From NCBI RefSeq assembly GCF_009828855.1, contig NZ_WUAG01000001.1, positions 1,550,001 to 1,614,000 on the forward strand: DNA of 64,000 nt. Reading direction: 5' to 3'. Every line of letters begins with the position of its first letter. Positions within the stretch are counted from its first letter, which is position 1. Below, piece by piece: positions 30,694-50,112 of this stretch. Position numbers and translations under genes: made by a program. The DNA comes from Psychromonas sp. L1A2. Its GTDB lineage: Bacteria; Pseudomonadota; Gammaproteobacteria; Enterobacterales; Psychromonadaceae. The notes beneath the pieces were generated by a model. That model saw only the letters and a program-made list of their open reading frames with translations. It was not told the origin of the DNA and ran no database searches.

Positions 30694-30755
30694 AAGGCTC
30701 CATGTTACTTTTTTATAGATACTCGTCGCTTAAAAAGTGAAGAATACCTATCTTG

Positions 30756-31757: not shown

Positions 31758-31814
31758 TCATTTCCTATTTTAATAAGCAAGGCAGTTAAAATGATATGCT
31801 AGGCTTATTAATTG

Positions 31815-31955: not shown

Positions 31956-32186
31956 TTGCTTTTAAAACAGGGGATTTAGAAAATTATTTATTTGTGTCAT
32001 TGATCAGGTTCAAGGAGGTTAATATTTATACTTATAGGCCCGGTAAATAATTCTGTTTTGTCAGTTTAGATTTGATTTATTAACAATTAGTAAATGATAT
32101 TTTGTGCGAATATAGATGGTTTTTGTCATATAGTGATTGTTTTATATTAAAGGCTCATATTTTTTTACCTTCCATATATTACCTTT

Positions 32187-32220
32187 TACAAAGAAGAACG
32201 CTTTCACGCTCTTCTTTGTA
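32187..32220 (-). terminator. Hairpin downstream of the amino-acid ABC operon
   Basis: Arms of 14 bases (TACAAAGAAGAACG / CGCTCTTCTTTGTA) carry one mismatch around a short loop, about 30 bases past the ATPase stop codon. The T tract on the minus strand is weak, so it may act as a processing or stability element as well. Confidence 0.65.
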
Positions 32221-32250
32221 TTTTACTCACATTGATTAATTGTTAGTAAC

Positions 32251-33620: not shown

Positions 33621-34291
33621 TATGAGATTTCTCCTTTAAATACTTTTTTGGCAATTAAATCAGAAGCTAATAACACTAACTTTGTGATCACATAATACAT
33701 AACCGCTGCTACCATAAAAAATTCTAATGTTCTGAACGAGGTTGATTGCAATCGTTGTGTTTCACCGGATAATTCATTCATGCCAACCAGTATCCCAAGT
33801 GAGCTCATTAGTATTGACCAAACAAATTGGTTAGTCATTGGGTGATAAATTCTACGGAACATTTGCGGTAAAATGATGTAGCGGTAGACCTTAAAGCTAT
33901 TCATACCTAGAGATTTTGCTGCGCTATATTGTGTTTTTGGAATGGATTGAAAACCACCCCTGAATGTTTCTGCTAAGTAACCTGCATTAATAAATACTAA
34001 GGCAGAAAAAACCGAGACGTATGGGCTAAGATGTATGCCATAAGCTCCTAAACCAAAATAGGCCATATAGATAAGAAAAAGGGCGGGGGTATTCCTTGCG
34101 ATTTCTATCCAAATATTTGCAACATGATAAAAAACTTTGGTTTCTGACATTTTTCCTAATGCTAATAATACGGCAATTATTATCCCTACTAGCATTGATA
34201 AAACAGAGACATGAACGGTAGTAAATGCGCCTGATAATAGTTGTGGAAATGCATCAAATACTACATTCCAGTGAAATTCATAATTATCCAT
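33620..34291 (-). CDS. Polar amino-acid ABC transporter permease 1
   Basis: This 223-residue HisMQ-type permease has EAA loop SAAKSLGMNSFKVYRYIILP and the preceding AGYLAETFRGGFQSIP. The N-terminal hydrophobic segment and ARNTPALFLIYMAYFG are typical of GltJ-like members. It lies downstream of the binding-protein gene with a 394-base gap that contains a hairpin, so it may be expressed at a lower level than the binding protein. Confidence 0.9.
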   Translation of the reverse strand: MDNYEFHWNVVFDAFPQLLSGAFTTVHVSVLSMLVGIIIAVLLALGKMSETKVFYHVANIWIEIARNTPALFLIYMAYFGLGAYGIHLSPYVSVFSALVFINAGYLAETFRGGFQSIPKTQYSAAKSLGMNSFKVYRYIILPQMFRRIYHPMTNQFVWSILMSSLGILVGMNELSGETQRLQSTSFRTLEFFMVAAVMYYVITKLVLLASDLIAKKVFKGEIS

Positions 34292-34685
34292 ATATCCTCT
34301 TTATAAGCATTTCTATTTGGCTTTGAGTCATATTTATTAAATTTGATGCTGTTTTATAATTGTTTTGACAATTATGATCCTCGGGCATCGTTAGTTTTAT
34401 ATGACGTATTTTTAATTGCTAATACAATGCGATATAAATTATTTCCTTTATTAAACGATCTTATTAATTGACCTTGTTAATTTAACTAAACTATTAGCCC
34501 AGATTAATTGAAATTGATAACTCAATAAAAACGATAAAATTTAAACTTATATTGATGTTTTCTATTTTAATTTTTTGATGGCTCATAACGGAGAGGGGTG
34601 ATGTTTAACCCTAGGGTTTTTAAATTGATATCCTCCAGCAGCACTGGAGGATGACTTACTTTTAGTTAGCACAAGCAAAAAATAA
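34292..34685. other. Intra-operon gap with hairpin
   Basis: This 394-base AT-rich gap lies between the binding-protein gene and the permease genes. Apart from the hairpin at 34630-34652 I saw no gene. A separate promoter for the permeases is possible but not identified. Confidence 0.4.
34630..34652 (-). terminator. Attenuating hairpin after the binding-protein gene
   Basis: ATCCTCCAG / CTGGAGGAT with a five-base loop lies about 35 bases past the binding-protein stop codon and lacks a strong T tract. Such hairpins commonly stabilise the upstream mRNA or partly terminate, giving more binding protein than permease. Confidence 0.55.
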
Positions 34686-35513
34686 TTACTTATTTTCTCT
34701 TAACGCTTTAACCATATCAGCAGATACAGGTGTACCAAAATGCTTAACATGTAATTCATTTAAACGACCATCACGAACTTGGTGAACTAAGAAAAGGTTT
34801 AGGTATTTAATCCAAGCCTGTTCACTTCTTTTAGCAATAATACCGACTACGTCATCGTAGTTTGGTACATAAGGACCAGCAACAAAATTATCAAATTGAC
34901 CAGAAGTTAGTTTAGTTGCGATATTGGTATTAGTTGAAATAAGCGCATCAACTTTGCCTTGATATAGTCCTAGGAATGCATCATTTTCTGATTTAAATGC
35001 AGTATAATTATCTCTTCCCCAGCCTTGTGCATCTGCATAATTGAAGTATTCAGTTTCATAGGTCGTACCTAGTGCCGCACCTACTTTTACATCCTTAAGA
35101 TCATCAAAAGATGTCATTTCCACACCTTTCTTAGAAATTACTTGGAACTTAAAAACAAAGTATGGATAAGTAAAGCCAACAGATTTAGCACGTGCTAATG
35201 AGTCTGAAGTCGACCCTATAACTACATCGGTTTTAGCTGAAATTAAAGAAGGGATACGATCACCCCAAGTTAGATTGATAACATTTGATTTTACGCCTAA
35301 AACTGCAGCTAAATCGTTACAGTAATCAACATCAAAACCGGCAGGTTTGTTATCTTTATCTGTGTAACCCATTGGTGGGAAATCAAGCACTACGCCACAA
35401 TTTAATGTGCCACGGCTGATTACATCATCTAGTTGATCTGCACTTGCGCTTGAAAAGGCACCGAGCGCTGAAATGGAAGCAACAACTAATGAGATTTTCT
35501 TTACGAACTTCAT
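34686..35513 (-). CDS. Polar amino-acid ABC transporter substrate-binding protein
   Basis: The 275-residue periplasmic protein has a signal peptide (LVVASISALGAFSSASA) and a family-3 solute-binding fold. Typical text includes GTLNCGVVLDFPPMGYTD, PAGFDVDYCNDLAAVLG and VDALISTNTNIA. The Asp in GFDVDYC and the Arg in SLARAKSVGFTYPY sit where amino-acid ligands are held. It delivers an amino acid to the permeases encoded downstream. The ligand cannot be stated from sequence. Confidence 0.9.
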   Translation of the reverse strand: MKFVKKISLVVASISALGAFSSASADQLDDVISRGTLNCGVVLDFPPMGYTDKDNKPAGFDVDYCNDLAAVLGVKSNVINLTWGDRIPSLISAKTDVVIGSTSDSLARAKSVGFTYPYFVFKFQVISKKGVEMTSFDDLKDVKVGAALGTTYETEYFNYADAQGWGRDNYTAFKSENDAFLGLYQGKVDALISTNTNIATKLTSGQFDNFVAGPYVPNYDDVVGIIAKRSEQAWIKYLNLFLVHQVRDGRLNELHVKHFGTPVSADMVKALRENK

Positions 35514-36059
35514 ACTTTCTCCTTGATTTTTATTTACAATTTACTTGTGCATAGGGTGGCTAGAACATAATGCGCCGCACTTTTGTATCTTGTATTTAAA
35601 TTAGATATCCCTATTTACAAGTCGATGTTAATTCTTATAAGTTTTTTTATTAATTGTTATAAGCAGATGTTAATCCTTTTAACACTTTAATGACTCTATC
35701 AAACTTTAGAATAACTTGTTGAGCTTTTTATGATTTATTCGAGGTTAAAAAATATCTAGGTATTTGGTATAGATAGGTAACAAGGAAGAGTTATTAGCTT
35801 TATATTTAATGCTTCTGTGAATGGATACTTAGTAAGTTATCTGATAATGCTTGCAACTAAATTTCATTTACCGTTGTCGTAATAGCATATCCATACTAGT
35901 CACTTATTTGTGGTTTTATAAAATTTTGAATTAAAAACCAGACCAAACACGGTCTTAATTGTAAGTGAGAGAGCAATGAGTCGCTCTTGAATCAAACAAT
36001 AATTTATGACGGTAGAAGTATTACCGATTTAAATCTAGTTAGTTTTAAAAGGAAATCTA
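35514..36059. other. Divergent intergenic region with a four-codon ORF and shared motif
   Basis: This 546-base gap separates the divergently read binding-protein gene and the gene at 36060. At 35976-35990 a four-codon frame (M-S-R-S) behind GAGAGAG ends in TCTTGA and is followed by ATCAAA. The same GCTCTTGAATCAAA occurs at 10553-10566 behind another mini-frame. No other structure was recognised. Confidence 0.35.
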
Positions 36060-36983
36060 ATGAAATTAACATTCTTATTAGCAATTATCATGAGCTTCTT
36101 TGTTTCTCCAAGTATAAGCTCAGCTGAAAATAGAGATAATAAAAAACATCACAATAGACAAAGTGTACATAAGCATTTGGAGTCTAAAAAAAATAGAGTT
36201 GTACGTAAACCTATCATCTATGAAAAGGGTTCTGTGCTACCAAAAAATCGTGCCGTTCGTAATAAAGAAGACAGGCAGAGCAATAAAAAAGCAATTGCTC
36301 ATAAAAATTCAAAAATTAACATTAATAGAAACATTCATCATCGTAATGTTCATAAACGCAATATTTCACAAAACCGTTCACAAATAAAAACGTCAGTATT
36401 ACCTCCCAATGCAGCTGTTCGAAATAAACAGAAAGCTAAAAGATTAATAGCCGCTAAAAAGTTAAAAAGTAAACGAAGTAAAAGTTTTCGTAAACGTGCT
36501 ATTTATAAAGCAGGTCTCAGGAGTCATAAATTACCAAGAAATGGTCGTAGGCTTCGTTTTGCAGGACTTTCTTTTATTTTTAGTAGCGGATTATATTATC
36601 GCCATCTAAATAATGGATATACCGTCGTGCATCCTCCAGTGGGGCTGAAAATTCGTTATTTACCACAGGGTTTTGAAGACATTTTTATTCATGGGATCCA
36701 TTATTACTTTTTCCAAGGTATTTATTATATTGCTAATGGTGGATATTACGAAGTAGTGGAAGAACCATCCAGCGATACAACTTCATTATCAATAAGTGAT
36801 GAAGCTGCATATATTAATGGATTACATGATGATTTTGAGCTCGGGCAACATTATTCTCTATTACCTAAAGGAGCTCAATTAGTTGTTATTAATGGCGAAC
36901 AATACTTTAAGTTCCAAGATATTTATTTTTTACCTCAGTCATTTGATAATGGTGTGCATTATTTAGCCGTGAAACTGAACTAA
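36060..36983 (+). CDS. Secreted basic protein with C-terminal DUF6515-like domain
   Basis: The 307-residue protein has a signal peptide (LLAIIMSFFVSPSISSA) and a strongly basic, Lys/Arg/Asn/His-rich region to about residue 165. The C-terminal part resembles DUF6515-type proteins (YYRHLNNGYTVVHPPVGLKI, then YLPQGFEDIFIHGIHYYFF). A phrase recurs within the basic region: SVLPKNRAVRNK and SVLPPNAAVRNK. Tyr-rich repeats (GIYYIANGGYYEVV, QDIYFLP) suggest a small beta fold. It is probably periplasmic or surface-located. Function is unknown. The basic part could bind anionic polymers, which is inference. Confidence 0.7.
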   Translation: MKLTFLLAIIMSFFVSPSISSAENRDNKKHHNRQSVHKHLESKKNRVVRKPIIYEKGSVLPKNRAVRNKEDRQSNKKAIAHKNSKININRNIHHRNVHKRNISQNRSQIKTSVLPPNAAVRNKQKAKRLIAAKKLKSKRSKSFRKRAIYKAGLRSHKLPRNGRRLRFAGLSFIFSSGLYYRHLNNGYTVVHPPVGLKIRYLPQGFEDIFIHGIHYYFFQGIYYIANGGYYEVVEEPSSDTTSLSISDEAAYINGLHDDFELGQHYSLLPKGAQLVVINGEQYFKFQDIYFLPQSFDNGVHYLAVKLN

Positions 36984-37604
36984 GGAACTTGAAACTTGGA
37001 TAAGCAGTATCACCTATTAGGTTATTATCACCTCTAATGATTTCTAGATACTCTAGTACGTGTTTTTTCAAACAATAAATCAACACCTCTAAAGTAGCCT
37101 TAACATAGATCCTGTTTCATTATGGTATCGGCTATGCTCTATTTTAAGTGTGTTTTTATTGACCGTTTCTATAATGTCTCTTTTTGGTAATGTGGTGGCA
37201 TTGTAAACAGGTTTGAATTTCATCTACCCACTATTATGTTTAAATATTTTTTAATTAAAAGAGCTGATTACTAGGCCGGTATTTAATTCAAATTTTAAAT
37301 GAAATTAAGGTTAAGTATTTATTTTTGAAGTTAATGTAGAAACTGTTATTTGAATGTAACCTTTTGTATCATGAAAATTTAATCATTAGTTATCAGTTAG
37401 ATTAATATATAAAATATTCTATTAATTAACGACTTTAGGAGTTCGATTTAGAGTGAGCTTCTTTATACCAATCATAGTAAGTAGCGGATCTATTTTACTG
37501 GCTATATCAATTCACTTTCTCATTATAAATTTGCGTATTTTAAAATTGTTACTTACGCTTAAAAATTAGTCTAGTACACTTTTTTATGAAGAAAAGGAAA
37601 TGTT
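36984..37604. other. Intergenic region with a degraded family A repeat
   Basis: This 621-base AT-rich gap separates two plus-strand secreted-protein genes. A partial copy of repeat family A lies at 37465-37545. No other element or gene was recognised. Confidence 0.4.
37465..37545 (+). repeat. Dispersed intergenic repeat family A, degraded partial copy
   Basis: It begins ATACCAATCATAGTAA and continues with GATCTATTTTACT and CATTATAAATTTGCGT, matching the first 80 bases of family A (compare 52865 onward). The remainder is missing. It lies just upstream of a small secreted-protein gene. Confidence 0.45.
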
Positions 37605-37847
37605 ATGATCAATAAAATACTTTTATTTACCAGTGTGCTTATTATCTCTAGTGGAGTCATGGCCAAACAAAACACTAAAGTATCTAAAAGTATATGTTTA
37701 AAAATTGATGCAAAAATTGTGACTGCTAAAAAGAATATGCGTGTTATGTATACAGATAAGAAAGGTCAGAAGTTAAGGGCTAAGTTAAAAGCGCTACAGA
37801 AAAAAAAGGCATATTGTAAAATAAGTAAGTTTCCAACGTCATCGTAA
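37605..37847 (+). CDS. Small secreted lysine-rich protein, unknown
   Basis: The 80-residue protein has a clear signal peptide (ILLFTSVLIISSGVMA) and a mature part of about 60 residues that is very rich in lysine and carries two cysteines (SKSICLKID, KAYCKIS) that could form one disulfide. AAAAGGAAA lies just before the ATG. I do not recognise a family. It is probably a periplasmic protein. The next gene starts 72 bases downstream in the same direction, so cotranscription with the metal transporter is possible. Confidence 0.6.
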   Translation: MINKILLFTSVLIISSGVMAKQNTKVSKSICLKIDAKIVTAKKNMRVMYTDKKGQKLRAKLKALQKKKAYCKISKFPTSS

Positions 37848-37918
37848 ATTAGTTTCTTATCCAGCGGTTTATTTCCTTTCTACTCTGTTTTTAAGAGTGT
37901 AGTCTTTATGACTCTCAT

Positions 37919-39211
37919 ATGTTCATTGATGGATCATCATTCAGAGTCTCTATGAAAATAAGGTCATTGTTTACATTAAATTCCTCGCATAAAAATAAAC
38001 ATGGGTTGAGTGAAATCCTTAAATATATGGGACCGGGTTTACTGGTCACTGTTGGTTTTATAGATCCGGGGAATTGGGCTTCCAATATTGCGGCGGGCTC
38101 AATGTTTGGATATACACTTCTATGGATGGTAACGCTGTCTACGCTAATGTTGATTTTATTGCAGCATAATGTTGCTCACCTAGGCATTGTTACTGGGGAT
38201 TGTTTAGCTGAATCCGCAATGAAAAATCTCAATGTGCATGTGGCTCAATTTGTACTTTTTACCAGTATTATAGCGGTTATATCGACTGCTTTGGCTGAGA
38301 TATTGGGTGGAGCAATTGCACTACAATTACTGTTTGATATACCGATAGTGATTGGTTCTGTCATTATTCTTGTTATCGTCATTTTCTTACTGTTTACCAA
38401 TACTTATACCAAGCTTGAAAAACTGATTATTGGTTTTGTGTCAATTATTGGATTTTCATTTTTGTATGAAATGAGCATTGTTAATATTGACTGGCCGGAG
38501 GCTGCTAGAAGTTGGGTAACCGTTAGTATTCCTGATGGTTCAATGATTATCGTTATGGCGGTATTAGGCGCTGTTGTTATGCCTCATAACCTATTTTTAC
38601 ATTCAGAAATTATTCAAAGTCGGCAATGGAGTAATGACAATGAAGCCGTTATTAAAAAACAATTAAGATATGAGTTTACTGATACTTTTGTATCAATGAT
38701 TATTGGCTGGGCTATTAATAGTGCAATGATTATATTGGCTGCAGCTACCTTTTTTGATAACAATATAGTGGTGACAGAACTAGAACAAGCGCAGCACCTT
38801 CTTTCTCCTATGTTGGGTTCAAAAGCCGCTATTGTATTTGGTATTGCATTATTATTTGCGGGAATTTCTTCAACCATTACTGCTGGTATGGCGGGTGGCT
38901 CTGTTTATGCCGGTTTATTTAAAGAACCTTACAATATCAAAGCGACCCACACTAAAGTGGGTGTGGCGGGTATATTAATTATTTCAACATTGATTGTTTT
39001 TTTGATTTCAGACCCCTTTAAAGGTTTGATTATTTCTCAAATGGTACTCAGCATTCAATTACCTATTACCGTTTTTCTACAAATTTATTTAACCTCATCG
39101 AAGAGGGTAATGGGAAAACATAGGAACTCCAAATTGATGAATTTTTTGTTGTTATCTATTTGGTTAATTTTAACTCTTTTGAATATAATGTTATTTGTCA
39201 GTTTTTTGTAA
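37919..39211 (+). CDS. NRAMP-family divalent metal transporter
   Basis: This inner-membrane protein of about 430 residues has 11 or so helices. The helix 1 metal-binding motif is DPGNW (GFIDPGNWASNIAAGS) and the helix 6 motif is MPHNLFLHS, both intact, so Mn2+ or Fe2+ uptake coupled to protons is expected. The helix 6 Met that favours soft transition metals is present. The start is uncertain: ATG 37919 or ATG 37952, neither with a strong ribosome site. The sequence is distant from E. coli MntH. No regulator is adjacent. Confidence 0.88.
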   Translation: MFIDGSSFRVSMKIRSLFTLNSSHKNKHGLSEILKYMGPGLLVTVGFIDPGNWASNIAAGSMFGYTLLWMVTLSTLMLILLQHNVAHLGIVTGDCLAESAMKNLNVHVAQFVLFTSIIAVISTALAEILGGAIALQLLFDIPIVIGSVIILVIVIFLLFTNTYTKLEKLIIGFVSIIGFSFLYEMSIVNIDWPEAARSWVTVSIPDGSMIIVMAVLGAVVMPHNLFLHSEIIQSRQWSNDNEAVIKKQLRYEFTDTFVSMIIGWAINSAMIILAAATFFDNNIVVTELEQAQHLLSPMLGSKAAIVFGIALLFAGISSTITAGMAGGSVYAGLFKEPYNIKATHTKVGVAGILIISTLIVFLISDPFKGLIISQMVLSIQLPITVFLQIYLTSSKRVMGKHRNSKLMNFLLLSIWLILTLLNIMLFVSFL

Positions 39212-39375
39212 TGACATATATTACCTCAATTCTGGTTAAATAAATCGATACATAACCCTTATTTATAGGTACTTTTTTTCCGTATTTCTGTGTTAAATCA
39301 CCTTAGAATAACTCGTTATAGCTTCGATGATTTGCCTTGAACTACACAAACATTACGATACTTTCATAATATGAA

Positions 39376-39466
39376 ATTTTAACATGTTGATATTTAATAG
39401 TATTACACTTCCATTATCCAGAACGGAGGTTATGCAATAAACCAAGTTGCATTATTAATGTAGCGG
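39376..39466. repeat. Dispersed intergenic repeat family C, copy 2
   Basis: Ordered words (TTTTAACATGTTGATA, CCATTATCCAGA followed by GGAGG, CATTAATG-like) match 9411-9546. It is followed by a GC-richer tail absent from copy 1. Non-coding. Confidence 0.4.
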
Positions 39467-39863
39467 TGCGCTCCGAAATAGTGCGAAAGCGAACATTGAT
39501 AGTGCGCTGACATGGAGCCTTCTTTCGATACCATCCAATAAATGATCAATTTAAATCGATAATAATTTCAATTTTAGTCAAAAAACACCATTAATATGAT
39601 TACATCTCAAATTGATTTAATTTAAATTTTTCATCGCTAATTAATTAAAAAAAATTGATATTTGCTAACCATTATTAACTTTATGATGACGGTTAATCAT
39701 TCATTTAAATTAATAGAAAGCGAGTGTTTATAGGTGGTTTGGCTTTTTATTGCGTGAAAAAATAAATGATATTAGACGCTTTTTACATTTGTTGTTTTTT
39801 TGAATAGATTCCTTGTTATCAGTGATTTAATACACTCTCTTTAAGTTGAATAGAGATCAAAAA

Positions 39864-39892
39864 TTTAGCATTAATAATACACTTGGTATAAT
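39864..39892 (+). promoter_or_regulatory. Candidate sigma-70 promoter of the lyase-TRAP operon
   Basis: A perfect -10 box TATAAT (39887-39892), preceded by TTGG, lies 17 bases after a weak -35 TTTAGC (39864-39869). Transcription would start near 39899, downstream of the first in-frame ATG at 39895. This argues for translation starting at 39952 or 39964. Confidence 0.45.
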
Positions 39893-39963
39893 TAATGCTG
39901 TTGCTTTGGACATATCTTTTGATTGCAGTTGCACTCAAATTGTTCAAGGTGATGTATAGACAT

Positions 39964-41403
39964 ATGGAAAATAGTCAAAACATAAAAGAACAAGTAAAAA
40001 TGATAGGGATGGATTTCGGTTCAACCACTAGCAGTGCGATGATCGCGGTGGCTGGCGTTGGAATGAATTCGGTGACGGGGCGAATGGCATTCTCTGCACC
40101 AGAAATTGTCTATCGATCTAATGTTGAATTTACACCTTTTAGAGGTGCTGAAATTGATGCATCCGCTATCGCTGAACTATTAGATACTTGGTTAGAAAAA
40201 GGTGATAACATTTTTTCGGGCGGGGTGATCATTACTGGTTTAGCTGCTTTACAACAAAACTCAGTGCATATTGCTGCTTTAATTAAAGAGCGTATTGGAC
40301 AAGCTGTTATTGCGACGGTTGATGATCCAAATCTTGAATCATGGTTAGCTTTCATGGGGTGTGCAGCATTATTATCTCGGCATTTTAAGAATGAAACGCT
40401 CGTTAATCTCGATATTGGTGGCGGTACAACTAATCCCGCAGCAGGTCAAAATGGACAAGTCAAAACAACGGGATGTTTTTATATTGGCGCCAGGCATTTT
40501 CAGTTTGAACCAGGGACTTACCGTTTAATTAATATCTCTGAATACGGTTATTCAATGTTAAACCACATCGGTGCAAACAATGAGATTGGCGATACTCTTG
40601 GTGCCGATATTCTCAATAAAATCCTCGATCTTTACATTGAAGCACTAAAAGCCATCGCTCGAGGAAACCTCGTGTTTTTTGAAAGCGACATTGGCCAGCG
40701 TCTTTGCCAAACTTCTTTTATACTGCCTCCAAACGTTTCTTCACCTATGATTACTTTTTCCGGTGGTGTAGGCGAACTTATTTATAAAATTACTGAAAAC
40801 GAACCGATACCTAGCACCACCTTTTATGGTGATTTAGGTATCGACCTAGCTAAAAAAATTATCTCCGATTCTTTCTTTTCTAAACAAATAACAACCATTC
40901 GCCCAGAAAATATGGGTAGAGCAACTGTGTACGGGTTGACGCTTCACAATACTGAAATTTCAGGTGCAACTTTATTTTTACCAGACACTTCGGCACTACC
41001 TTTAAATGATGTCCCTATTGTTGCTCGACTCAGTATGTCTTGTGATTTAGATGATCTTCTTAATTCTATTTCTGTTGTTGCACAACGTAGCGGCAAAGCT
41101 TGTATTCAAATGCTACCAGTAACTGATTCAGAAGGGGGGGCTTTACCTGCTTCTCTGCAACAAATTAAAACGCTTGGTGTTCGAATAAATCAAGCATTAG
41201 CAACACTCACTATTGATTTACCGTTAGTGATATTGGTACCCGGAAATTTTGGGAAAGCATTAGGTAACTATGCAACGGACTGGGGAAAATCATCCGCTAA
41301 ATTAATGATCATAGATGAAATTCCAGATCGTAATGCACAGTTTGTAAACATTGGAAGTCCGTATCGCGGCGTTGTACCCGTTTCTTTTTATGGCATTTAT
41401 TAG
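39964..41403 (+). CDS. eutA: EutA-like reactivating factor for the B12-dependent ammonia-lyase
   Basis: From ATG 39964 the protein has 479 residues, close to E. coli EutA. It is an actin/Hsp70-fold ATPase: phosphate loop 1 is MDFGSTTSS and phosphate loop 2 is NLDIGGGTTN. EutA exchanges damaged cobalamin for intact adenosylcobalamin in ethanolamine ammonia-lyase, using ATP. GGVIITGLAALQQN matches the EutA region GAIIITGESAKTRN. Alternative in-frame starts are 39952 and 39895; the last probably precedes the transcription start. Seventeen bases separate it from the fused lyase gene, its expected client. EutA rather than another actin-fold reactivase is chosen mainly from this text and the neighbour. 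Confidence 0.8.
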   Translation: MENSQNIKEQVKMIGMDFGSTTSSAMIAVAGVGMNSVTGRMAFSAPEIVYRSNVEFTPFRGAEIDASAIAELLDTWLEKGDNIFSGGVIITGLAALQQNSVHIAALIKERIGQAVIATVDDPNLESWLAFMGCAALLSRHFKNETLVNLDIGGGTTNPAAGQNGQVKTTGCFYIGARHFQFEPGTYRLINISEYGYSMLNHIGANNEIGDTLGADILNKILDLYIEALKAIARGNLVFFESDIGQRLCQTSFILPPNVSSPMITFSGGVGELIYKITENEPIPSTTFYGDLGIDLAKKIISDSFFSKQITTIRPENMGRATVYGLTLHNTEISGATLFLPDTSALPLNDVPIVARLSMSCDLDDLLNSISVVAQRSGKACIQMLPVTDSEGGALPASLQQIKTLGVRINQALATLTIDLPLVILVPGNFGKALGNYATDWGKSSAKLMIIDEIPDRNAQFVNIGSPYRGVVPVSFYGIY

Positions 41404-41420
41404 AATTTAAGGTTTATTTA

Positions 41421-43616
41421 ATGAAAAAGATTATCCCACTTAAAGATATTCATGTTCCCGTTCCAGGGCCAGAGGAAGTTTATTCTTTCAAAATATTGAA
41501 TGAAATTTTTTACTTTGAAGGGCTTAAAAAGTTATTAGGAGCCGCTGATATCAGCAAAGCTGGTGATAGAACAACGGAGCTGGCTCCCAAGAATGCAATG
41601 GATAGAGAAGCGGCAAGAGCAATTCTGGCTTCTTTAACATTGCAGTACCTTTATGATAATCCGTTAACTGCTGATGATGGCAGTGTTGACTCTGTCATGC
41701 GTGCTGGTTATGAGATAGATCTTGAACTGTTTCAAAGCATTGCCCATATGACTATGGGCGATCTTAAAGATCATTTGCTGGCCAGTAATGGAACGCGAGT
41801 GGCTGCGATTGGTTTAGCATTAACACCTGTCATGGCATCCGCTTTAACCAAGTTAATGGATGTACATGAATTAGTTTATTTACCCGGTAAAATATTTCGA
41901 CCGACTAAAGCAAGAACCTTGATTGGTACGCCTAAAACACTGTCATTTCGTCTTCAACCTAATCATCCTAAAGATAATTTAGATGCTATTTCTATGATGG
42001 TTTATAACGATTTAGCAATGGGAATGGGCGATTGTTTAATTGGTGTTAATCCCTCTGACGGCTCGGTAGATAATATAGCCGCAATGCTGTGGCACATAGA
42101 TAAGCTTCGTCGCGAAACAGGTGCGCCCACTCAAATTTGTGTACTTGGGCATATTAAAAGTCAACTTACCGCTTTAAAGCAGGGCGCACCAGTTGAAATC
42201 TTATTCCAAAGCTTTGCAGGTACAGATGAAACATTAACTGGAGAGTTCGACGTAACGGTAGAGTTTTTAGATCAAGCCGTGGAAACCATGAAAAATGAAG
42301 GGCCGCTAAAAGAGATAGCGGAACAATTTATGTACTTTGAAACAGGTCAAGGCAGTGAAATGACTTACCGTAAACATAACGGTATGGATATGGCGACTTG
42401 CGAAGCATTATGTTACGGACTATGTCGACGTTATGATCCTTTTATGGTGAATAATGCAACAGGTTTCATTGGTCCAGAAACACATCTTAATGACTTTGAA
42501 TTAATGGTCTCGACACTTCAAGACCACTTCATGGGGAAACTGTTAGGCTTACCGATGGGCATCAGCCCAAGTTATACCTTGCATTCTAACTCCCATTTAG
42601 AAGGTCAGCAAATGGCTGTGCAATTGGCTACAGCGGCGGGGGCTAACTTCTTTATGGATATCTATTTAGGTACCGATCGTATGCTTGCTCACTTTGTGAA
42701 TTCAGGACACGACGATCAAACCTTAAGGGAAATATATCACCGTAATCCTGCGCCTGAGTTTTTACAATGGGCAGTTCAAAAAGGTATTTATATTCAACAT
42801 ACCGATGGTAACGTTGAGCGTGGTCCAAATTGGGGAAACCCAAGGTTATTTATCAAGAGTGATTTAGAGTTTCAGCGTCTGCATGAAGCAACACCAAATG
42901 CCCCTGGATTTGAAAATGCAGGTCCACGTCCTGCGCATAAAGTACAAGAAGTGATTCGTATTAATCAATCAGTAGGACGAGAAGCGGTTCATTCACATCT
43001 TAAACCAGAGTTGTTTACTGGTTTCACCTTTAGAGAGTTCGTCTCTACGGCTATTGATCATGCTGAACATTTAAAAAATCCTGAAGTTGGCTCAAAACTG
43101 TCTAAAACTGATCTAGATAGCCTTTCTGCTGAAGGTAATGATGTGCAAATTATTATCACCGATGGTTTATCGGCTGAAGCTGTTCATCATAACGTTCCGG
43201 ATATGATTCCAGTATTAATGGATGGATTAAAAAGCCGTCATTACTCATTAGGCGAGCCTATCGTTACACACTTTGGTCGCGTTAAATTAGCTGAATGTAT
43301 CTCCGATGTATTAGATTGTAATGTTGCTATTTTATTGGCAGGAGAGCGACCAGGGGGAGATGCACTTTCTTCAAAAAGTATGTCTGCTTATTTGGTGCTA
43401 AAGCTGAAGGATGAGAAGGCGAGAAAAGCCGCTGCAATTTACAGTGAACATGAAAAAATTCGTTATGAATACACTTTAATTACAAACATTTACCAAGGAG
43501 GTTTACCGCCTATCGAAGGAGGCAGTGTTGTCGCAGAAAAAGTAATGGAAATTCTTGAAAATCAAGCCGCAGGTAATCGATTAGAAGATCTGTTGAAAGC
43601 TCAAAAAAACGTATAA
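41421..43616 (+). CDS. eutBC: Fused EutB-EutC ethanolamine ammonia-lyase-type enzyme, adenosylcobalamin-dependent
   Basis: This single 731-residue chain joins both lyase subunits. Residues 25-478 align with the EutB barrel and residues about 500-720 with EutC (GPRP, ITDGLSAEAV, THFGRVKLAE, LLAGERPGG, NIYQGGLPP). Ethanolamine ammonia-lyase converts ethanolamine to acetaldehyde and ammonia by radical chemistry. Residues aligned with E. coli Arg160, Gln162, Asn193, Ser247, Glu287, Phe329 and Met392 are kept as Arg177, Gln179, Asn210, Ser264, Glu307, Phe349 and Met412. The position aligned with Asp362 is Ser382, and the adjoining Cys-Cys pair is Pro-Ser. The EutC half has a different N-terminal segment. 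A related amino alcohol is therefore a possible substrate. No frameshift is seen at the junction, so the fusion looks genuine. Confidence 0.88.
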   Translation: MKKIIPLKDIHVPVPGPEEVYSFKILNEIFYFEGLKKLLGAADISKAGDRTTELAPKNAMDREAARAILASLTLQYLYDNPLTADDGSVDSVMRAGYEIDLELFQSIAHMTMGDLKDHLLASNGTRVAAIGLALTPVMASALTKLMDVHELVYLPGKIFRPTKARTLIGTPKTLSFRLQPNHPKDNLDAISMMVYNDLAMGMGDCLIGVNPSDGSVDNIAAMLWHIDKLRRETGAPTQICVLGHIKSQLTALKQGAPVEILFQSFAGTDETLTGEFDVTVEFLDQAVETMKNEGPLKEIAEQFMYFETGQGSEMTYRKHNGMDMATCEALCYGLCRRYDPFMVNNATGFIGPETHLNDFELMVSTLQDHFMGKLLGLPMGISPSYTLHSNSHLEGQQMAVQLATAAGANFFMDIYLGTDRMLAHFVNSGHDDQTLREIYHRNPAPEFLQWAVQKGIYIQHTDGNVERGPNWGNPRLFIKSDLEFQRLHEATPNAPGFENAGPRPAHKVQEVIRINQSVGREAVHSHLKPELFTGFTFREFVSTAIDHAEHLKNPEVGSKLSKTDLDSLSAEGNDVQIIITDGLSAEAVHHNVPDMIPVLMDGLKSRHYSLGEPIVTHFGRVKLAECISDVLDCNVAILLAGERPGGDALSSKSMSAYLVLKLKDEKARKAAAIYSEHEKIRYEYTLITNIYQGGLPPIEGGSVVAEKVMEILENQAAGNRLEDLLKAQKNV

Positions 43617-43697
43617 CCCAATTTAACAAAGTAATGCTAAAAATATTTTAATCAATATTCAACACACAGCTACATACATTAAATAAGGATATAAATA

Positions 43698-44729
43698 ATG
43701 ATATTGAGAAAGAAAGTAATTAAACAAGTCACACTTGCGACCACTTGTGTGATGTTGCTGTTAGCGCCTGTCGTGCAAGCTGATTCAATGAGACTTAAGT
43801 TTGCTCATCAAAATAACGTTTATGATGCAGATCAGCTATTGGCTGAAACGTTTAAAACATTATTAGAAGAAAAGACGAACGGTGACCTAAAGGTTTCAAT
43901 TTACCCTGGTACCTTAACTGGATCAGAAGAAGAAGCGTTAGAATTTGCTAAAGCAGGGACGGTTTCCCTAGCGGCGACGAGTGCGGGTCATATAGCAGGT
44001 TATTACGAGGACATTCAATTTCTTCAACTTCCTTATTTATTTAAAAGTTTGGAGCATTATAAAGTAGCAAGAAGCTCTAGTGTGGTTAAAGAGATCCTTG
44101 CTGGTGCCAGTAAAGCAACAGGTATGAAAGCATTGGGCGTCTATTCTGATTGTAATGGTTTTGCGATTGCCAGTAAAAAACCTATTAATAGTATAGCGGA
44201 TGCTAAAGGCGTGAAGTTACGAGCGATGCAAAATCCTTTGTTTATTGATATCTACGAAGCATTTGGCTTTACGGTGACACCGACAGACTGGGGTGAGCTT
44301 TATACTTCATTACAAACAGGCATGGTAGAAGCTGATGATTTAGGTGTGTATTGCAACGATATTTTCAAAATGAGTGAAGTTGTTGATAGTTATGCAATAT
44401 TGAATCAAATGTGGACGCAAAAAATATTATTTATGTCTCCAAAAGTCTGGGACAAATTAACTGCAGAACAAAAAGTGATTGTGACTGATATTGCCGATGA
44501 AGCAATAGAGTTAACAGATGCTTGGCAGTATGCTCGTGAAGCTAAATTCATCGAAAAAGTAAAAGAAGATAAAGATCAAACGATTACTTACCCGAATACT
44601 GACGAATTTAAAGAAGCCTCTAAATCTGTGTATACAAAATGGTTTGCTAAAGAACCTAAATGGAAAACGTGGTACGAACAAATCCAATACCTAGATCCGA
44701 ATGCACGTCTACCTAAAGCATTTAAATAA
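43698..44729 (+). CDS. dctP: TRAP transporter solute-binding protein, DctP family
   Basis: The 343-residue periplasmic protein has a signal peptide (TLATTCVMLLLAPVVQA) and the DctP fold. The signature helix region reads AKGVKLRAMQNPLFIDIYEA; Arg175 is the arginine that in known TRAP proteins binds the substrate carboxylate. The usual QENP-type segment is replaced by EADDLGVYCND, suggesting an unusual ligand. It delivers the substrate to DctQM, encoded next. It lies 81 bases after the lyase gene, so the imported compound is probably the lyase substrate or a precursor. Confidence 0.9.
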   Translation: MILRKKVIKQVTLATTCVMLLLAPVVQADSMRLKFAHQNNVYDADQLLAETFKTLLEEKTNGDLKVSIYPGTLTGSEEEALEFAKAGTVSLAATSAGHIAGYYEDIQFLQLPYLFKSLEHYKVARSSSVVKEILAGASKATGMKALGVYSDCNGFAIASKKPINSIADAKGVKLRAMQNPLFIDIYEAFGFTVTPTDWGELYTSLQTGMVEADDLGVYCNDIFKMSEVVDSYAILNQMWTQKILFMSPKVWDKLTAEQKVIVTDIADEAIELTDAWQYAREAKFIEKVKEDKDQTITYPNTDEFKEASKSVYTKWFAKEPKWKTWYEQIQYLDPNARLPKAFK

Positions 44730-44818
44730 TAGTTAATTGCTTGAATAAGGTCAGTCTTGTTTACAAAAGAGACTGACCTATTAATTAATAGCAAACAAAA
44801 AATAATAAGGTGAGCAAT

Positions 44819-45331
44819 ATGCCTGATACAGAAAAAAGTGTGCTAGGTAATAAAATTGAAGGCGTCATGCATAAAGTAAGTAGTGTATGTGGAGTTACTT
44901 TGCTGGTGTTAATGTGTAGTTTGATTTTGTTACTTGGAGTGAATATTTTTTTACGATATTGCTTCGACTCACCGATTGCTTGGTCCAATACTATTTCAAG
45001 ATATATTTATATCGTTATTGCATTAATAGGCAGTGCTATTGCTTATACACAACAGAGTCATGCTCGAATTGATATTCTTTATAATCGAGTAGGGCCTAAG
45101 ACTAAAAAGGTTTTCGACTTTTTTCATTGCATTATTATGATGACACTTTGCGTTATTTTTATGGTAGTTGGTAGTCAACATGCCGTAACGATGTGGCCTG
45201 TGCACCCTCCCATTATTCCTTGGTTGCCTATTGGTAGTATTTACCTTGCTATTCCTATTTTTTCTTTTTTGATTTTTCTTTATCTATTAACAAAAATGAT
45301 ATCTATTTTTAATAAACGGAGTGCTTCATGA
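44819..45331 (+). CDS. dctQ: TRAP transporter small membrane subunit, DctQ family
   Basis: From ATG 44819 the protein has 170 residues and four hydrophobic helices. NIFLRYCFDSPIAWSNTISRY is the DctQ hallmark region with the conserved Arg and Trp. It pairs with DctM in sodium-driven solute uptake. AAGG stands eight bases before this ATG, so I prefer it to the GTG at 44810. It overlaps dctM by four bases. Confidence 0.9.
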   Translation: MPDTEKSVLGNKIEGVMHKVSSVCGVTLLVLMCSLILLLGVNIFLRYCFDSPIAWSNTISRYIYIVIALIGSAIAYTQQSHARIDILYNRVGPKTKKVFDFFHCIIMMTLCVIFMVVGSQHAVTMWPVHPPIIPWLPIGSIYLAIPIFSFLIFLYLLTKMISIFNKRSAS

Positions 45332-46608
45332 CTTTTATTTTTTTAATGATCCTTTGTTTTATTTTGCTGATGGCAATTAGAATACCTATTCCTTTTGCAT
45401 TGCTTGCGTCAACACTTGTTTACTTCATTGGAGCGGATATTCCTCTCAGTATTATGGTGGTTCGATTATTCCGTTCTTTTGATTCATTTGTATTGTTAGC
45501 TATCCCATTCTTTATTTTAGCGGGAAAAGTGATGGCAGAATCGGGTATCAGTGATCGAATTATTCGTTTAGCTGATTTAATAGTAGGGCGTGTTAAGGGC
45601 AATCTTGCTTATGTGAATATTGTCGTCAGTATGTTTTTTGGCGGTATTACTGGTACGGCTATTTCTGATACAACGGCGGTTGGCTCTGTGATGATCCCGG
45701 CGATGACTAAAGCGGGTTATAAAAAAAGTTTTAGTGCGGCTGTCACCGCTGCATCATCAACCATGGGACCGATTATTCCTCCTAGTTTAATGTTTATTCT
45801 CTATGGTTCAATTGCTCAGGTATCTATTAAAGATATGTTTTTAGCGGGTGCTATTCCTGGAGTCATGGTTGGACTTGCTCAAATTGCCGTTGTTTGGTTA
45901 TACGGTCGTAAAAATGACTTACCGAGAAGAGAAGAAAAAATAACACGCAAGCAAGGTTTTGATATTGTTGGTGGCGCTTTTTATGCAATGTTACTGCCGG
46001 TGATCATTCTCGGTGGCATTTTAATGGGCGTGGTAAGTCCCACTGAAGCGGCTGTTATTGCAGTGTTTTATTCTATTTTTATTGCTATTTTTGTATATCG
46101 TTCTTTAACTTGGAAAAGGTTAATGGGGGCAATTCGAGAATCAACCGTTGAAACCGGTAGTGTGTCGATTATCATTGCTGCAGCGGGTATTTTTGGATGG
46201 GCATTATCAAATGAACAGTTGCCAATGATCTTTGCAGAATACTTAGTAGAGAATATTGAATCAACTTGGTTAATTTTATTACTTATCAACGTTTTATTAT
46301 TTTTTCTGGGCATGTTTATGGATTCGATTCCTGCCTTGATGATAGTGACACCTGTATTACTACCGGTGTTTGACATGTTAGGTATTGACCCATTACATGC
46401 GGGTATTTTCATGTGTGTTAATTTAATTACAGGTCTGGCAACACCCCCCGTAGGTTGCTGTTTGTTTGCGTCATCAATTATATCAGGTGAGTCGATGGAA
46501 AAAATTAGCCGAGCAATATTGCCGTTTATTCTAGCTAACGTGATTATCGTTTTATTGATTACTTACATCCCTTGGATCACACTGTTTTTGCCTTCATTGT
46601 TTGATTAA
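45328..46608 (+). CDS. dctM: TRAP transporter large membrane subunit, DctM family
   Basis: This 426-residue protein has about 12 hydrophobic segments and belongs to the ion transporter superfamily. Family text includes LLAIPFFILAGKVMAESGISDRI, GGITGTAISDTTAVGSVMIPAM and PTEAAVIAVFYS, with a second repeat MFMDSIPALMIVTPVLLPV. It catalyses sodium-coupled import of the ligand bound by DctP. The gene starts within the dctQ stop (ATGA). It is the last gene of the operon, followed by a strong terminator. Confidence 0.93.
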   Translation: MTFIFLMILCFILLMAIRIPIPFALLASTLVYFIGADIPLSIMVVRLFRSFDSFVLLAIPFFILAGKVMAESGISDRIIRLADLIVGRVKGNLAYVNIVVSMFFGGITGTAISDTTAVGSVMIPAMTKAGYKKSFSAAVTAASSTMGPIIPPSLMFILYGSIAQVSIKDMFLAGAIPGVMVGLAQIAVVWLYGRKNDLPRREEKITRKQGFDIVGGAFYAMLLPVIILGGILMGVVSPTEAAVIAVFYSIFIAIFVYRSLTWKRLMGAIRESTVETGSVSIIIAAAGIFGWALSNEQLPMIFAEYLVENIESTWLILLLINVLLFFLGMFMDSIPALMIVTPVLLPVFDMLGIDPLHAGIFMCVNLITGLATPPVGCCLFASSIISGESMEKISRAILPFILANVIIVLLITYIPWITLFLPSLFD

Positions 46609-46640
46609 TTTAATCGTCATTTATGAAAAAATTCTATTAA

Positions 46641-46675
46641 ATGATTGGCTATATTGACTTTAGCCAATCATTTTT
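46641..46675 (+). terminator. Terminator of the lyase-TRAP operon
   Basis: A 10-bp GC-containing stem (TGATTGGCTA / TAGCCAATCA, extended by one A-T pair) is followed by TTTTTCC. It lies about 30 bases past the dctM stop codon and separates the operon from the EAL-domain gene. Confidence 0.9.
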
Positions 46676-46844
46676 CCTACCTATTTAAGTTATGCACTTA
46701 TTATTTGAATTCAAGTAGTAAAAGTAATCTAAAAGGTTTTGTGATTTTTATTCTACCTCGCTTTTGGTAGGCCTTAATGAGTGTGTAATTGATTTTCTGT
46801 TATACTAATAATATATAATTAATTTATAGGTTATTAGAGGTGCT

Positions 46845-48494
46845 ATGACAGATAAGACAAACACATTACTTGCTTTTTTGACTATATATAACGGCAGTAT
46901 TCCAACAGTCAAAGCCTGTAATGATAACTTTACTGAAATGCTAGGGTTTTCTGAGTCTCAAATAAAACATGTCCCGTTAGCTGATAAGTTAGTCTTATGT
47001 GAGGAATCATCTTTCTTACATTTAGATGATTTATTTCGAAGTGCAATGACCACCAGTGGCGGTGTTTTTACTTCAGCTAAGATGTTTAATAGTTTTCATT
47101 ATGCGGTAAGTGTTAAGTTACATTGCGTACACGAAGAAAATGATCTTTTTACGTTATATTTGTCAGTGTCAGAAAACAAATCTGTCGATCCTATCTCAAC
47201 ATTACCTAATGGCTGGGCATTAACTTCTCGGGTTAATTATTTAATTAATCAGCAAAAAATGTCCTTAAAAAATGTCATCCTTATTATTTTAGAAGCGGAT
47301 AATTTTTCAACAATTAACTATCGCTATGATTATGCTATTGGTGATCAATATCTAATTTTATTAGGGGAGCGTTTACAGAATATAATGAAAGGGTTTGGTT
47401 TTGTAATACGTTTTTCAAATGCAAAGTTCGCTATTTTAATTGAAGATTATGAGCAGCTTCCTGAAGATATTTTATACAAACGTATTGAACTCATTTGTCA
47501 AAACTTATGCTCAACCTTAGCTGAACCTATTTGGATCTCTGATCAACTGCCAATAACGAAGTCATTTAGCATTGGGGTTAGCTCTCCTGGTTACGATTAT
47601 AATTGTTATCATTCAATGGATATTGCTGCTGAAACGGAAAAAGAAAAGGCGAAGAAATACAGCATTAATAAATATTTTATTGCCTCTGCTGAACCTGCAG
47701 AAGAGTTATTAACGAGAAAATTAATTATTGAAGCGTTACCTGAAGCGATTATAAAACACCAAATTGAAGTCCATTATCAACCTCAATACGATATGAAAAG
47801 CAGAGAGCTAACTGGACTGGAAGCTTTATCGCGCTGGAATGATGAAAACTTAGGTTTTATTCCCCCCAATATATTTGTAGCAATTACTGAAGATATAGGA
47901 TTGCATTTTGAATTTGACCTGTGGGTTTTTGAAAAAGTATGTACACAATTGATGGACTGGCAATATCAAGAGATTCAAGTACCACGTGTTGCTATCAACA
48001 TTTCATTCAAAACAATGGAAATGACGACCTTTATTGAACGTATAAAATATATTCTAAACAAGACGGGATGTCCCACTCATTTTATTGAGTTAGAAGTGAC
48101 TGAAACAAGCTCAATAAATAACACTAAAATGCTAGTTGATAATATGTTGAAGGTTAAAGAATTGGGAATGCATATTGCGGTGGATGATTTTGGGACGGGC
48201 TATTCCTCGTTAAGCTTAGTGCGAACTTTTCATTTATCATTAGACAAATTAAAATTAGACCGTAGTTTAGTTGATAAAGTTTGCCATACTGAATTAGATA
48301 GAAACTTTATTAAGCATATCATTGAGCTAGGTAAAATTTTAAACCTTAGCGTATTAGCTGAAGGAGTAGAAACACAAGAGCAGTTAGATTTGTTAATGGA
48401 ACTTGGCTGTGATTATGCACAAGGGTATTATTTTTCTAAAGCATTGCCAAGTGATGATATTGCACGGTTAATCGAGAATAATCACACGTCTTAG
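46845..48494 (+). CDS. PAS-like/degenerate GGDEF-EAL cyclic-di-GMP phosphodiesterase
   Basis: The 549-residue cytoplasmic protein has a PAS-like sensor (about residues 8-115), a GGDEF-fold domain (about 120-270) and an EAL domain (about 285-545). The GGDEF signature is replaced by FSNAKFAIL, so cyclase activity is not expected. The EAL domain keeps LEALSRW, ELEVTETS, VDDFGTGYSS and AEGVETQEQ, the metal and catalytic residues, so c-di-GMP hydrolysis is expected. No membrane segment is seen. It has its own leader after the operon terminator; a link to the lyase operon is only by position. Confidence 0.88.
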   Translation: MTDKTNTLLAFLTIYNGSIPTVKACNDNFTEMLGFSESQIKHVPLADKLVLCEESSFLHLDDLFRSAMTTSGGVFTSAKMFNSFHYAVSVKLHCVHEENDLFTLYLSVSENKSVDPISTLPNGWALTSRVNYLINQQKMSLKNVILIILEADNFSTINYRYDYAIGDQYLILLGERLQNIMKGFGFVIRFSNAKFAILIEDYEQLPEDILYKRIELICQNLCSTLAEPIWISDQLPITKSFSIGVSSPGYDYNCYHSMDIAAETEKEKAKKYSINKYFIASAEPAEELLTRKLIIEALPEAIIKHQIEVHYQPQYDMKSRELTGLEALSRWNDENLGFIPPNIFVAITEDIGLHFEFDLWVFEKVCTQLMDWQYQEIQVPRVAINISFKTMEMTTFIERIKYILNKTGCPTHFIELEVTETSSINNTKMLVDNMLKVKELGMHIAVDDFGTGYSSLSLVRTFHLSLDKLKLDRSLVDKVCHTELDRNFIKHIIELGKILNLSVLAEGVETQEQLDLLMELGCDYAQGYYFSKALPSDDIARLIENNHTS

Positions 48495-48541
48495 TAAGAC
48501 TTTACCATTTTAAAAAAATTGAAGCTGAAAACTAATAATAG

Positions 48542-48572
48542 ACTAACAATATACCGATTTTCTATTGTTAGT
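48542..48572. terminator. Hairpin between convergent EAL and hypothetical genes
   Basis: Perfect 10-base arms ACTAACAATA / TATTGTTAGT with an 11-base loop. The right edge touches the stop codon of the minus-strand gene. It is AT-rich with weak T tails, so it is a possible terminator. Confidence 0.4.
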
Positions 48573-49210
48573 TATGCTTTATATAATAAATCTAATTCAC
48601 CATGTTGAATGCTTTTATTGACGCCTTGTAGGCAACTGTGTGCCACTTTCAGTACTTCGTTCATATTCTCATAACATTTACTCTCACTTTTACCATAAGC
48701 TAGAAAGGTTAATGTTACTTGGTAGCCCATTCCCCCAGTATTCGGTTGGTCGCCTAAAGCTAAATAACAGGTTGGAGAATGGGATAAAGCAATCGCTCCG
48801 GCTTTAAAATTAGGTTTCATCGTTGATACTAACGTTAATATTTTATTACTCAGCCAATCAATACTTTTTTCTTGGCAATTTTCTGGAATCTCTCGAAATA
48901 AAATCATTAAACGAGCACTGCATTTTTTGGGGTAAGGGTACTGTTTTTCTGTGTTTTTTTCGATAGGATTAAATACACAATCATTGCTTTCTAATAATGA
49001 TTGAGAACTATTTATCCATTCAATTAAGGAATAAAATGCTTCTACAAAATCCCATTTTTTAAATGGTGTAAGATCCTCTAATGCACTACGAATTAATTTA
49101 GGTTGTTTCTTAAAATCGATATAGGCGTTACCATCATTTGATACCATGCTTGTCCAAGGGTGTGACCTTAGTGTTGTTTGATCAATCTGCTTGGAAATTA
49201 AAGCATCCAT
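48572..49210 (-). CDS. Hypothetical cytoplasmic protein
   Basis: I do not recognise this 212-residue protein. ATG 49210 is chosen because AAAGG precedes it; an upstream ATG at 49327 would add about 39 very hydrophobic, Tyr/Leu-rich residues encoded by AT-rich leader DNA. No signal peptide or membrane segment is visible from the chosen start. Six cysteines are scattered (NDCVFNP, KKCSARL, ENCQEK, PTCYLA, KCYENM, SCLQG). It appears to be one soluble domain, and it stands alone facing the EAL gene. Confidence 0.65.
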   Translation of the reverse strand: MDALISKQIDQTTLRSHPWTSMVSNDGNAYIDFKKQPKLIRSALEDLTPFKKWDFVEAFYSLIEWINSSQSLLESNDCVFNPIEKNTEKQYPYPKKCSARLMILFREIPENCQEKSIDWLSNKILTLVSTMKPNFKAGAIALSHSPTCYLALGDQPNTGGMGYQVTLTFLAYGKSESKCYENMNEVLKVAHSCLQGVNKSIQHGELDLLYKA

Positions 49211-49638
49211 TCTTATGGCCTTTTTGTCTATCTCTATTGGAAGAAGCAGGATTCTAACAGTTAACTCAAAATAGCTGTACAAAATATAAAGAGTATAGAA
49301 ATAATAAAAGTTTATAGTCGTTATCAATTTATTAGGTATTTATTTTTTATGTGGTTTTTGTGGCCCAATTTTCACTTTAAATCTAGTGATTAACCATTCA
49401 TTTATATTGACATTATATTGGTAATGTTTTCCTGGTTATAGTTTGGGTTTTCATTTTAATTATCAGGAAAATAGACATTATTTTGGTGTCGCAGTGGTTG
49501 ATGAATATGTGTGAATCAAGTACTCTAATAATGTTAATTCGTCTTTAGGCACATGTATTCTTACACAATTAATGTGGTATTTTTAATTGCCTAATAAATT
49601 GTTATTTTTGATTACAATTATAAACATGAGGAAATGAA
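49211..49638. other. Divergent intergenic region upstream of dps
   Basis: This 428-base AT-rich gap between the divergently read hypothetical gene and the dps-like gene must hold both promoters. I recognised no clear OxyR, Fur or other operator. Confidence 0.4.
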
Positions 49639-50112
49639 ATGGCTGATATAGATATTGGTATAAGTAAAGAGAATAGAGCGGAAATATCAGATGGTTTAAA
49701 ACGACTATTAGCTGATTCTTACACGTTGTATTTACAAACTCATAATTTTCACTGGAATGTAACAGGTATGCAATTTCGTGAGTTACATTTAATGTTCGAA
49801 GAGCATTACACGGAACTAGCTACTGCAGTTGATGATATTGCTGAACGTATTAGAACACTTGATGTTCCAGCTCCAGGAACGTACAAAGAATTTGCAAAAT
49901 TAAGTTCAATCAAAGAAGTCGATGGTGTGCCAAGTTCAGCAGAAATGGTCGAGTTGTTGACTAAAGGGCACGAACAGGTCATTAAAACTTCTCGTCAAGT
50001 ATTGAAAGTTGCACAAGAGGCAGACGATGAGTCTACAGCTTCTTTAGTGTCTGACCGTATGCGTATACATGAAAAAACTGCTTGGATGTTAAGAGCGACT
50101 AAAACAGCATAA
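49639..50112 (+). CDS. dps: Dps-family ferritin-like protein
   Basis: The 157-residue protein assembles by family knowledge into a 12-subunit shell that oxidises and stores iron and protects DNA from peroxide. The ferroxidase region shows [21 protein letters not shown] and [19 protein letters not shown], which supply the His, Asp and Glu ligands at the subunit interface. The N-terminal tail is short and not strongly basic, so direct DNA binding is uncertain. GAGGAAATGAA stands before the ATG. It is monocistronic. Confidence 0.93.

Follow-up and report, generated by a model that had tools for sequence, protein, structure and literature searches.

The window, a stretch of 64,000 nucleotides from Psychromonas sp. 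L1A2, contains five genes on the same strand: a gene for an EutA-like protein, a single-chain eutBC gene, and the three genes of a TRAP transporter, dctPQM (Table 1). The EutA-like gene is separated from the fusion by 17 bases, the fusion from dctP by 81, and dctP from dctQ by 80. The true start of the EutA-like gene may lie about 20–30 codons inward of the called one, and its product scores below all four NCBIfam EutA cut-offs matched (best, 184.6 of 598). Next after dctM is a GGDEF-EAL gene (46845–48494). Within positions 30000–50000, no cobalamin riboswitch or other Rfam element reaches the gathering score. An Nramp-family metal transporter is encoded upstream (37919–39211; NCBIfam MntH 338.5, below 430; general Nramp 134.3, above 50), and an Nramp gene also lies upstream of the cassette in another Psychromonas genome (L005).

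Table 1 Features of the eutA-eutBC-dctPQM locus (positions in the window).
Feature	Position	Strand	Basis
EutA-like reactivating ATPase, 502 aa as called	39895..41403	+	Pfam EutA 221.7 bits, cut-off 27
Single-chain EutB-EutC lyase P0001, 731 aa	41421..43616	+	Pfam, alignment, pocket comparison
EutB domain, residues 30–457	41508..42791	+	Pfam EutB
Ala346 (E. coli position 326)	42456..42458	+	Ala in 6/6 TRAP-linked; Val in other 17 and in 24/24 non-clade EutBs
Ser382 (E. coli Asp362)	42564..42566	+	Ser/Ala in 23/23 clade; Asp in 24/24 others
Asp413 (E. coli Gly393)	42657..42659	+	Asp in 23/23 clade; 0/24 others
Arg420 (E. coli Ile400)	42678..42680	+	Arg in 23/23 clade; 0/24 others
Linker, residues 458–482, replacing EutC N-terminal region	42792..42866	+	Gap between Pfam matches; E. 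coli EutC alignment
EutC domain, residues 483–721	42867..43583	+	Pfam EutC
DctP, TRAP substrate-binding protein (Arg175 codon, 44220–44222)	43698..44729	+	Pfam DctP
DctQ, TRAP small permease	44810..45331	+	Profile match; same order in 6 TRAP-linked loci
DctM, TRAP large permease (4-base overlap with DctQ)	45328..46608	+	Profile match; same order in 6 TRAP-linked loci

The eutBC frame is open from ATG to stop over 731 codons. A preliminary description had proposed one uninterrupted EutB plus EutC frame with domain borders at residues 478 and 500. The frame call and the Pfam matches to both families (EutB, 408.8 bits, cut-off 25; EutC, 143.1 bits, cut-off 25.8) bear this out, and the borders are correct to within about 20 residues (EutB to 457, EutC from 483). 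The EutC N-terminal region, described there as remodelled, is replaced by the linker in the alignment to E. coli EutC. The protein scores below the NCBIfam cut-offs for both EutB (390.3 against 554) and EutC (123.7 against 230). In a sequence search, its two parts match the solved E. coli EutB and EutC chains, respectively, and the EutB part is 34% identical to E. coli EutB (153 of 450). The predicted model aligns with both chain types of the E. coli ethanolamine ammonia-lyase structure (3abo) and also matches diol dehydratases. It is a weak model (mean pLDDT 73, with several active-site stretches below 50) that supports both folds and not the geometry of the pocket.

Like the E. coli enzyme (3abo), the window protein has both domains and retains R160, Q162, N193, and E287 (E. 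coli EutB numbering throughout). It differs in being one chain, in carrying an N-terminal extension of about 18–25 residues relative to E. coli EutB, in lacking the long EutC N-terminus, and in having D362 replaced and a new D393 and R400. An extension before EutB, of about 18 residues or more relative to E. coli, is present throughout the clade of relatives described below. The fusion does fix the subunit stoichiometry at 1:1, as had been pointed out; this adds little, the two-chain enzyme being already 1:1.

The fusion is real and conserved. The fusion copies of two other Psychromonas genomes (L005 and L019) are 98–99% identical and free of stops, and the clade rows aligned (the window plus 15 loci out of 16 from a pattern scan) are single chains of 717–808 aa in 16/16 cases, none split by a stop at the junction. 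Therefore, an assembly error that joined two frames is ruled out. More broadly, the idea that two genes were joined by a sequencing or assembly error, or that the copy is decaying, has almost nothing left to recommend it. Two relatives could be taken to speak for it: L020, the row omitted from the alignment, has a frame change, and L076, a later find, is shortened, matching the protein only up to about residue 347. However, the L020 break falls inside the EutB part (one piece stops near residue 163 and the next starts near residue 187), away from the EutB–EutC junction, and the aligned single chains come from several phyla. Divergence at the amino-acid level is low as well: against the Vibrio protein (L006), dN is 0.096 for the whole protein (dS was returned as -1, which we take as saturation), and dN is 0.114 with dS 1.86 for the EutC part. 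From its sequence, the fusion protein looks functional.

Relatives were sought by scanning genome contigs with six peptide patterns, a method that reaches close relatives only. The scan returned 16 loci (L005–L020; 54–99% identity) from Psychromonas, Vibrio, Desulfobacterales, Planctomycetota, Hyphomicrobium, Nannocystis, Sorangium, Oligoflexales, Kistimonas, and an Oceanospirillales metagenome-assembled genome (MAG). Later members of the clade are a locus on a Methylocystis plasmid (L067) and loci from genome samples (L062–L064, L074, L075, and L078); L076 was left unscored in the pocket counts. The clade is rare, patchy, and spread over several phyla. At strict E-value limits (1e-90 or 1e-110), a clade fusion is present in 2/398 genomes of the own-phylum sample (the own genome and G547), 2/274 of the own class, 3/294 of the phylum of G063, 1/297 of the phylum of G062 (which also has three group II fusions, see below), 2/178 of the order of G062, 1/289 of the class of G064, and 3/188 of the phylum of G068, one of these three being truncated. 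With no strict limit, 3/60 relatives of the own genome have it, the own genome included. These samples overlap partly, and the centre genome is counted where it was sampled. A third match in the own-phylum sample (G421) was discarded as a split canonical pair, and frames of 730 and 772 aa near the EutB matches of G037 and G052 turned out to belong to separate eutB and eutC genes.

A tree was built from 37 rows after dropping 8 near copies and removing the diagnostic columns, with L075 and L078 outside it. The clade receives 100/100 support on a long stem (1.39). The window, L006, L007, and L013 form one 100/100 branch that unites Gammaproteobacteria and Desulfobacterales; these are four of the six rows linked to TRAP genes, the remaining two having been dropped as near copies of the window. 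Two further groups of fused EutBC lie outside the clade. Group II (L052–L054), a second kind of single-chain ethanolamine ammonia-lyase, comes from three genomes in the sample of the G062 phylum. Its members, like the window protein, are one chain (703–704 aa), but they have the canonical pocket (D362, no D393) and no N-terminal extension, and the one tested, L052, is above the NCBIfam cut-offs for EutB and EutC, unlike the window protein. L065 and L066 are fused too but fall into a third, distant group, which has D362. An AU test does not reject a single fusion event for all three fused groups (p 0.297), so we do not claim independent fusions.

An EutA-like gene adjoins the fusion in 19/24 clade loci (the window, 13/16 pattern-scan loci, L062, L063, L074, L075, and L078). 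Such a neighbour was not seen at L009, L012 (Hyphomicrobium), L064, or L067; for L010, the upstream DNA is lacking. The plasmid-borne member (L067 9001–11196, Methylocystis sp. MJC1) has no annotated eutA within 9 kb on either side. In two loci, from Kistimonas and the Oceanospirillales MAG, an alkaline phosphatase gene lies directly upstream of eutA (L017 4519–6261, by Pfam; L020 1882–3519, by clustering). In L074, a DASS transporter gene lies about 1 kb downstream of the fusion.

The substrate pocket was compared in 47 rows, with E. coli EutB (L068) as the reference. The 23 clade rows comprise the 20 first compared plus L074, L075, and L078, and are not all independent (L005 and L019 are nearly identical to the window, as is L010 to L012). 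The 24 others are E. coli EutB, a further 18 EutBs that are separate chains, and 5 fused EutBCs from the two other groups. R160, Q162, N193, and E287, which we take to be substrate-site residues of ethanolamine ammonia-lyase, are present in 47/47 rows, the window included. Because the four are kept in 23/23 clade rows, adenosylcobalamin (AdoCbl) radical chemistry is plausible. Position 362, the aspartate of which in E. coli EutB is presumably a ligand of the substrate amine, is Ala in 16 and Ser in 7 of the 23 clade rows but Asp in 24/24 others. Position 393 is Asp in 23/23 clade rows, whereas the others have Gly (18), Ala (5), or Ser (1). Even the five fused EutBs outside the clade keep D362 and lack D393. 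Asp393 would reach the substrate, at a site where the predicted model is weak. I400R, V327T, and C363P are likewise clade-wide and absent from the 24 others; N367L was rejected as a clade mark, being clade-wide yet also present in two group III rows. Given this pocket and the missed NCBIfam cut-offs, the designation of the product as simply ethanolamine ammonia-lyase is not supported.

Within the clade, a further change follows the neighbouring transporter. V326 and M392 are assumed here to line the pocket of ethanolamine ammonia-lyase. A326 together with S364 occurs in exactly the six TRAP-linked rows, all of which have S362. In the other 17 clade rows the residues are V326 and C364; position 362 is Ala in 16 of them and Ser in the remaining one, L017. 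The dctPQM genes stand behind the fusion in the window, L005, L006, L007, L013, and L019; no TRAP gene like the window's occurs in the stretches examined around the other 17 clade members. DctM of the window is 73–74% identical to those of two Desulfobacterales loci. The cassette was presumably transferred horizontally between phyla.

Arg175 of DctP lies in a 'KLR' motif that is invariant in the 5/5 proteins aligned (the window and four relatives, out of six TRAP loci), and it aligns with an arginine of solved DctPs. Judged by its motif and by alignment to other DctPs, not to SiaP, it would be the equivalent of SiaP Arg147. In DctP proteins, a conserved arginine mediates the binding of carboxylates; Csal_0678 is without that arginine and binds ethanolamine (PMC4646407; this and the other reports are cited from excerpts of their text). 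The window's DctP retains the arginine; therefore, by this family rule, an acidic solute is predicted for it. Ethanolamine has been called a surprising TRAP ligand given its positive charge (PMC5812351), and EtoX is a TRAP transporter for ethanolamine (PMC10132767). The window resembles the Csal_0678 and EtoX systems in tying TRAP uptake to amino-alcohol breakdown (PMC4646407, PMC10132767). It differs from the former in keeping Arg175 of DctP, where Csal_0678 lacks the carboxylate arginine (PMC4646407), and from the latter in that the EtoX operon goes with gamma-glutamylation genes (PMC10132767).

The single-chain form had been thought undescribed. However, two EutBC fusions, Pcar_0491 and Pcar_0467, were reported in Pelobacter carbinolicus in 2012 (PMC3543383), and the Methylocystis plasmid record already calls one clade member 'ethanolamine ammonia-lyase'. 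Compared by description only, the P. carbinolicus fusions, like the window's, join the large and small subunits in one chain and adjoin predicted uptake genes, but the P. carbinolicus genome is reported to be without eutA, unlike the window; the authors considered distinct lyases for ethanolamine and choline possible (PMC3543383, excerpted text). Another report, PMC8330102, appeared to combine ethanolamine ammonia-lyase with a TRAP transporter and was set aside, EutB and EutC in its excerpted text being ectoine utilisation genes. In the excerpts of the open-licence literature that we searched (subscription papers lie outside this scope), we found no single-chain ethanolamine ammonia-lyase besides those of P. 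carbinolicus, no TRAP cassette with EutBC, and no description of the replacement of D362 by Ser or Ala with D393. The fusion as such is not new; what makes the locus interesting is its altered pocket and the cassette.

The own genome also encodes a canonical set. At a separate locus, it has eutB (733.3 bits, NCBIfam cut-off 554), eutC (329 bits, cut-off 230), and the Eat ethanolamine permease (489.8 bits, cut-off 381.75); a gene for an EutR-like regulator nearby scores 93.9, far below its cut-off of 319. A canonical EutB is present in four of the six TRAP-linked genomes, the own included, the two without being MAGs. A search of 12 further clade genomes, covering 12 of the 16 pattern-scan loci, found it in 6 and not in the other 6, so that an argument from redundancy is not general.

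The preliminary description had further suggested that the fusion may stand in for microcompartment targeting, for which residues 1–19 of EutC are known to direct cargo to Eut compartments (PMC3299773, PMC12487888, both in excerpt). The alignment reveals no counterpart of these residues in the 731-aa chain. However, the own genome's separate EutC is likewise without the long E. coli N-terminus, so the lack of targeting is not tied to the fusion; a search for the BMC shell family (PF00936) gave no match in the own genome, while the E. coli and Synechococcus controls were positive. The suggestion is not supported.

Taken together, the sequence comparisons point to an AdoCbl-dependent single-chain lyase, the TRAP subgroup of which would be specialised for a vicinal amino alcohol that is acidic or differs from ethanolamine in some other way. 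We give this reading an even chance; the enzyme activity and the substrate class are what we infer. With both subunits joined in one chain, catalysis would proceed as in ethanolamine ammonia-lyase: after cleavage of the Co–C bond of adenosylcobalamin, the 5'-deoxyadenosyl radical would abstract a hydrogen atom from the substrate's carbinol carbon, and the amine would migrate and leave to give an aldehyde or ketone; the EutA-like neighbour would exchange damaged cofactor. Across the clade, position 393 would have taken over from 362 as the site of the acidic residue holding the substrate amine. Ala326, Ser362, and Ser364 would alter the pocket further in the TRAP-linked members (Psychromonas, Vibrio, and Desulfobacterales). 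The portable five-gene cassette eutA-eutBC-dctPQM would import and cleave an acidic or non-standard vicinal amino alcohol, not plain ethanolamine. A more specific proposal, which we hold tentatively and at somewhat short of even, is that the TRAP-linked proteins are a coenzyme-B12 lyase of a new kind, for an acidic vicinal amino alcohol (e.g., isoserine, a 4-amino-3-hydroxyacid, or an N-hydroxyethyl amino acid). On this proposal, the lyase arose when the amine-binding Asp of a single-chain EutBC shifted from barrel position 362 to 393, and it spread across phyla as an import-and-cleave cassette.

Ethanolamine ammonia-lyase is generally regarded as a family that acts on ethanolamine and close analogues, and AdoCbl eliminases are, to our knowledge, a short list. 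A clade with a swapped acidic residue, in which the transporter type tracks the pocket, offers a case where a change of substrate by a radical enzyme can be tested directly. In addition, an enzyme encoded by one gene might be simpler to express and engineer than the two-subunit one.

A changed substrate is favoured because eutB, eutC, and the Eat permease are already encoded elsewhere in the own genome, because V326A is confined to the six TRAP-linked rows, and because DctP keeps the arginine that the ethanolamine-binding Csal_0678 lacks (PMC4646407, excerpted text). The same three points, together with fusion scores under the NCBIfam EutB and EutC cut-offs, weigh against a plainer explanation, namely an ordinary one-chain isoenzyme of ethanolamine ammonia-lyase that is fed by a high-affinity ethanolamine TRAP importer and in which Asp has moved from 362 to 393 while doing the same job. 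We consider this explanation doubtful, though deserving of serious weight. Ethanolamine retains a claim as the substrate because two non-TRAP clade members, L008 and L078, which have D393 too, adjoin EutH, that of L008 above the equivalog cut-off (617.8 of 575), which speaks for ethanolamine in these two. Breakdown of phosphoethanolamine would fit as well, because alkaline phosphatase precedes the L017 and L020 loci. The remaining presumed substrate residues are kept, and TRAP systems for ethanolamine are known from the excerpted reports (PMC5812351, PMC10132767).

A leaving group other than an amine, eliminated from a hydroxy-sulfonate (e.g., isethionate) or a diol after TRAP import, is improbable. 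The loss of the acid at 362, the predicted TRAP import of an anion, and the match of the model to diol dehydratases would agree with it, as would a match of DctP to the isethionate-binding DctP 8t9t (96.6 bits). However, 8t9t is far from the best solved match, 4n8y, itself at just 123 bits, for which reason no ligand was assigned to DctP from solved relatives. Moreover, all scored members have the new Asp393, which suggests continued binding of a cation, and EutH stands beside two clade members. In just two of the six TRAP loci, GntR-FCD, ornithine-cyclodeaminase-like, and opine-dehydrogenase-like neighbours may point to amino-acid-like chemistry and offer possible clues to the substrate. These genes lie behind the TRAP genes in Desulfobacterales (L007 10469–13277, assigned by Pfam; L013 7241–9765, assigned by clustering).

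Outside the clade, the planctomycete group III fusion (L065 7632–9938; 768 aa, D362 kept) begins with RRTFLG and then a hydrophobic stretch, which by eye resembles a twin-arginine signal. If real, this signal would make the protein an exported B12 lyase.
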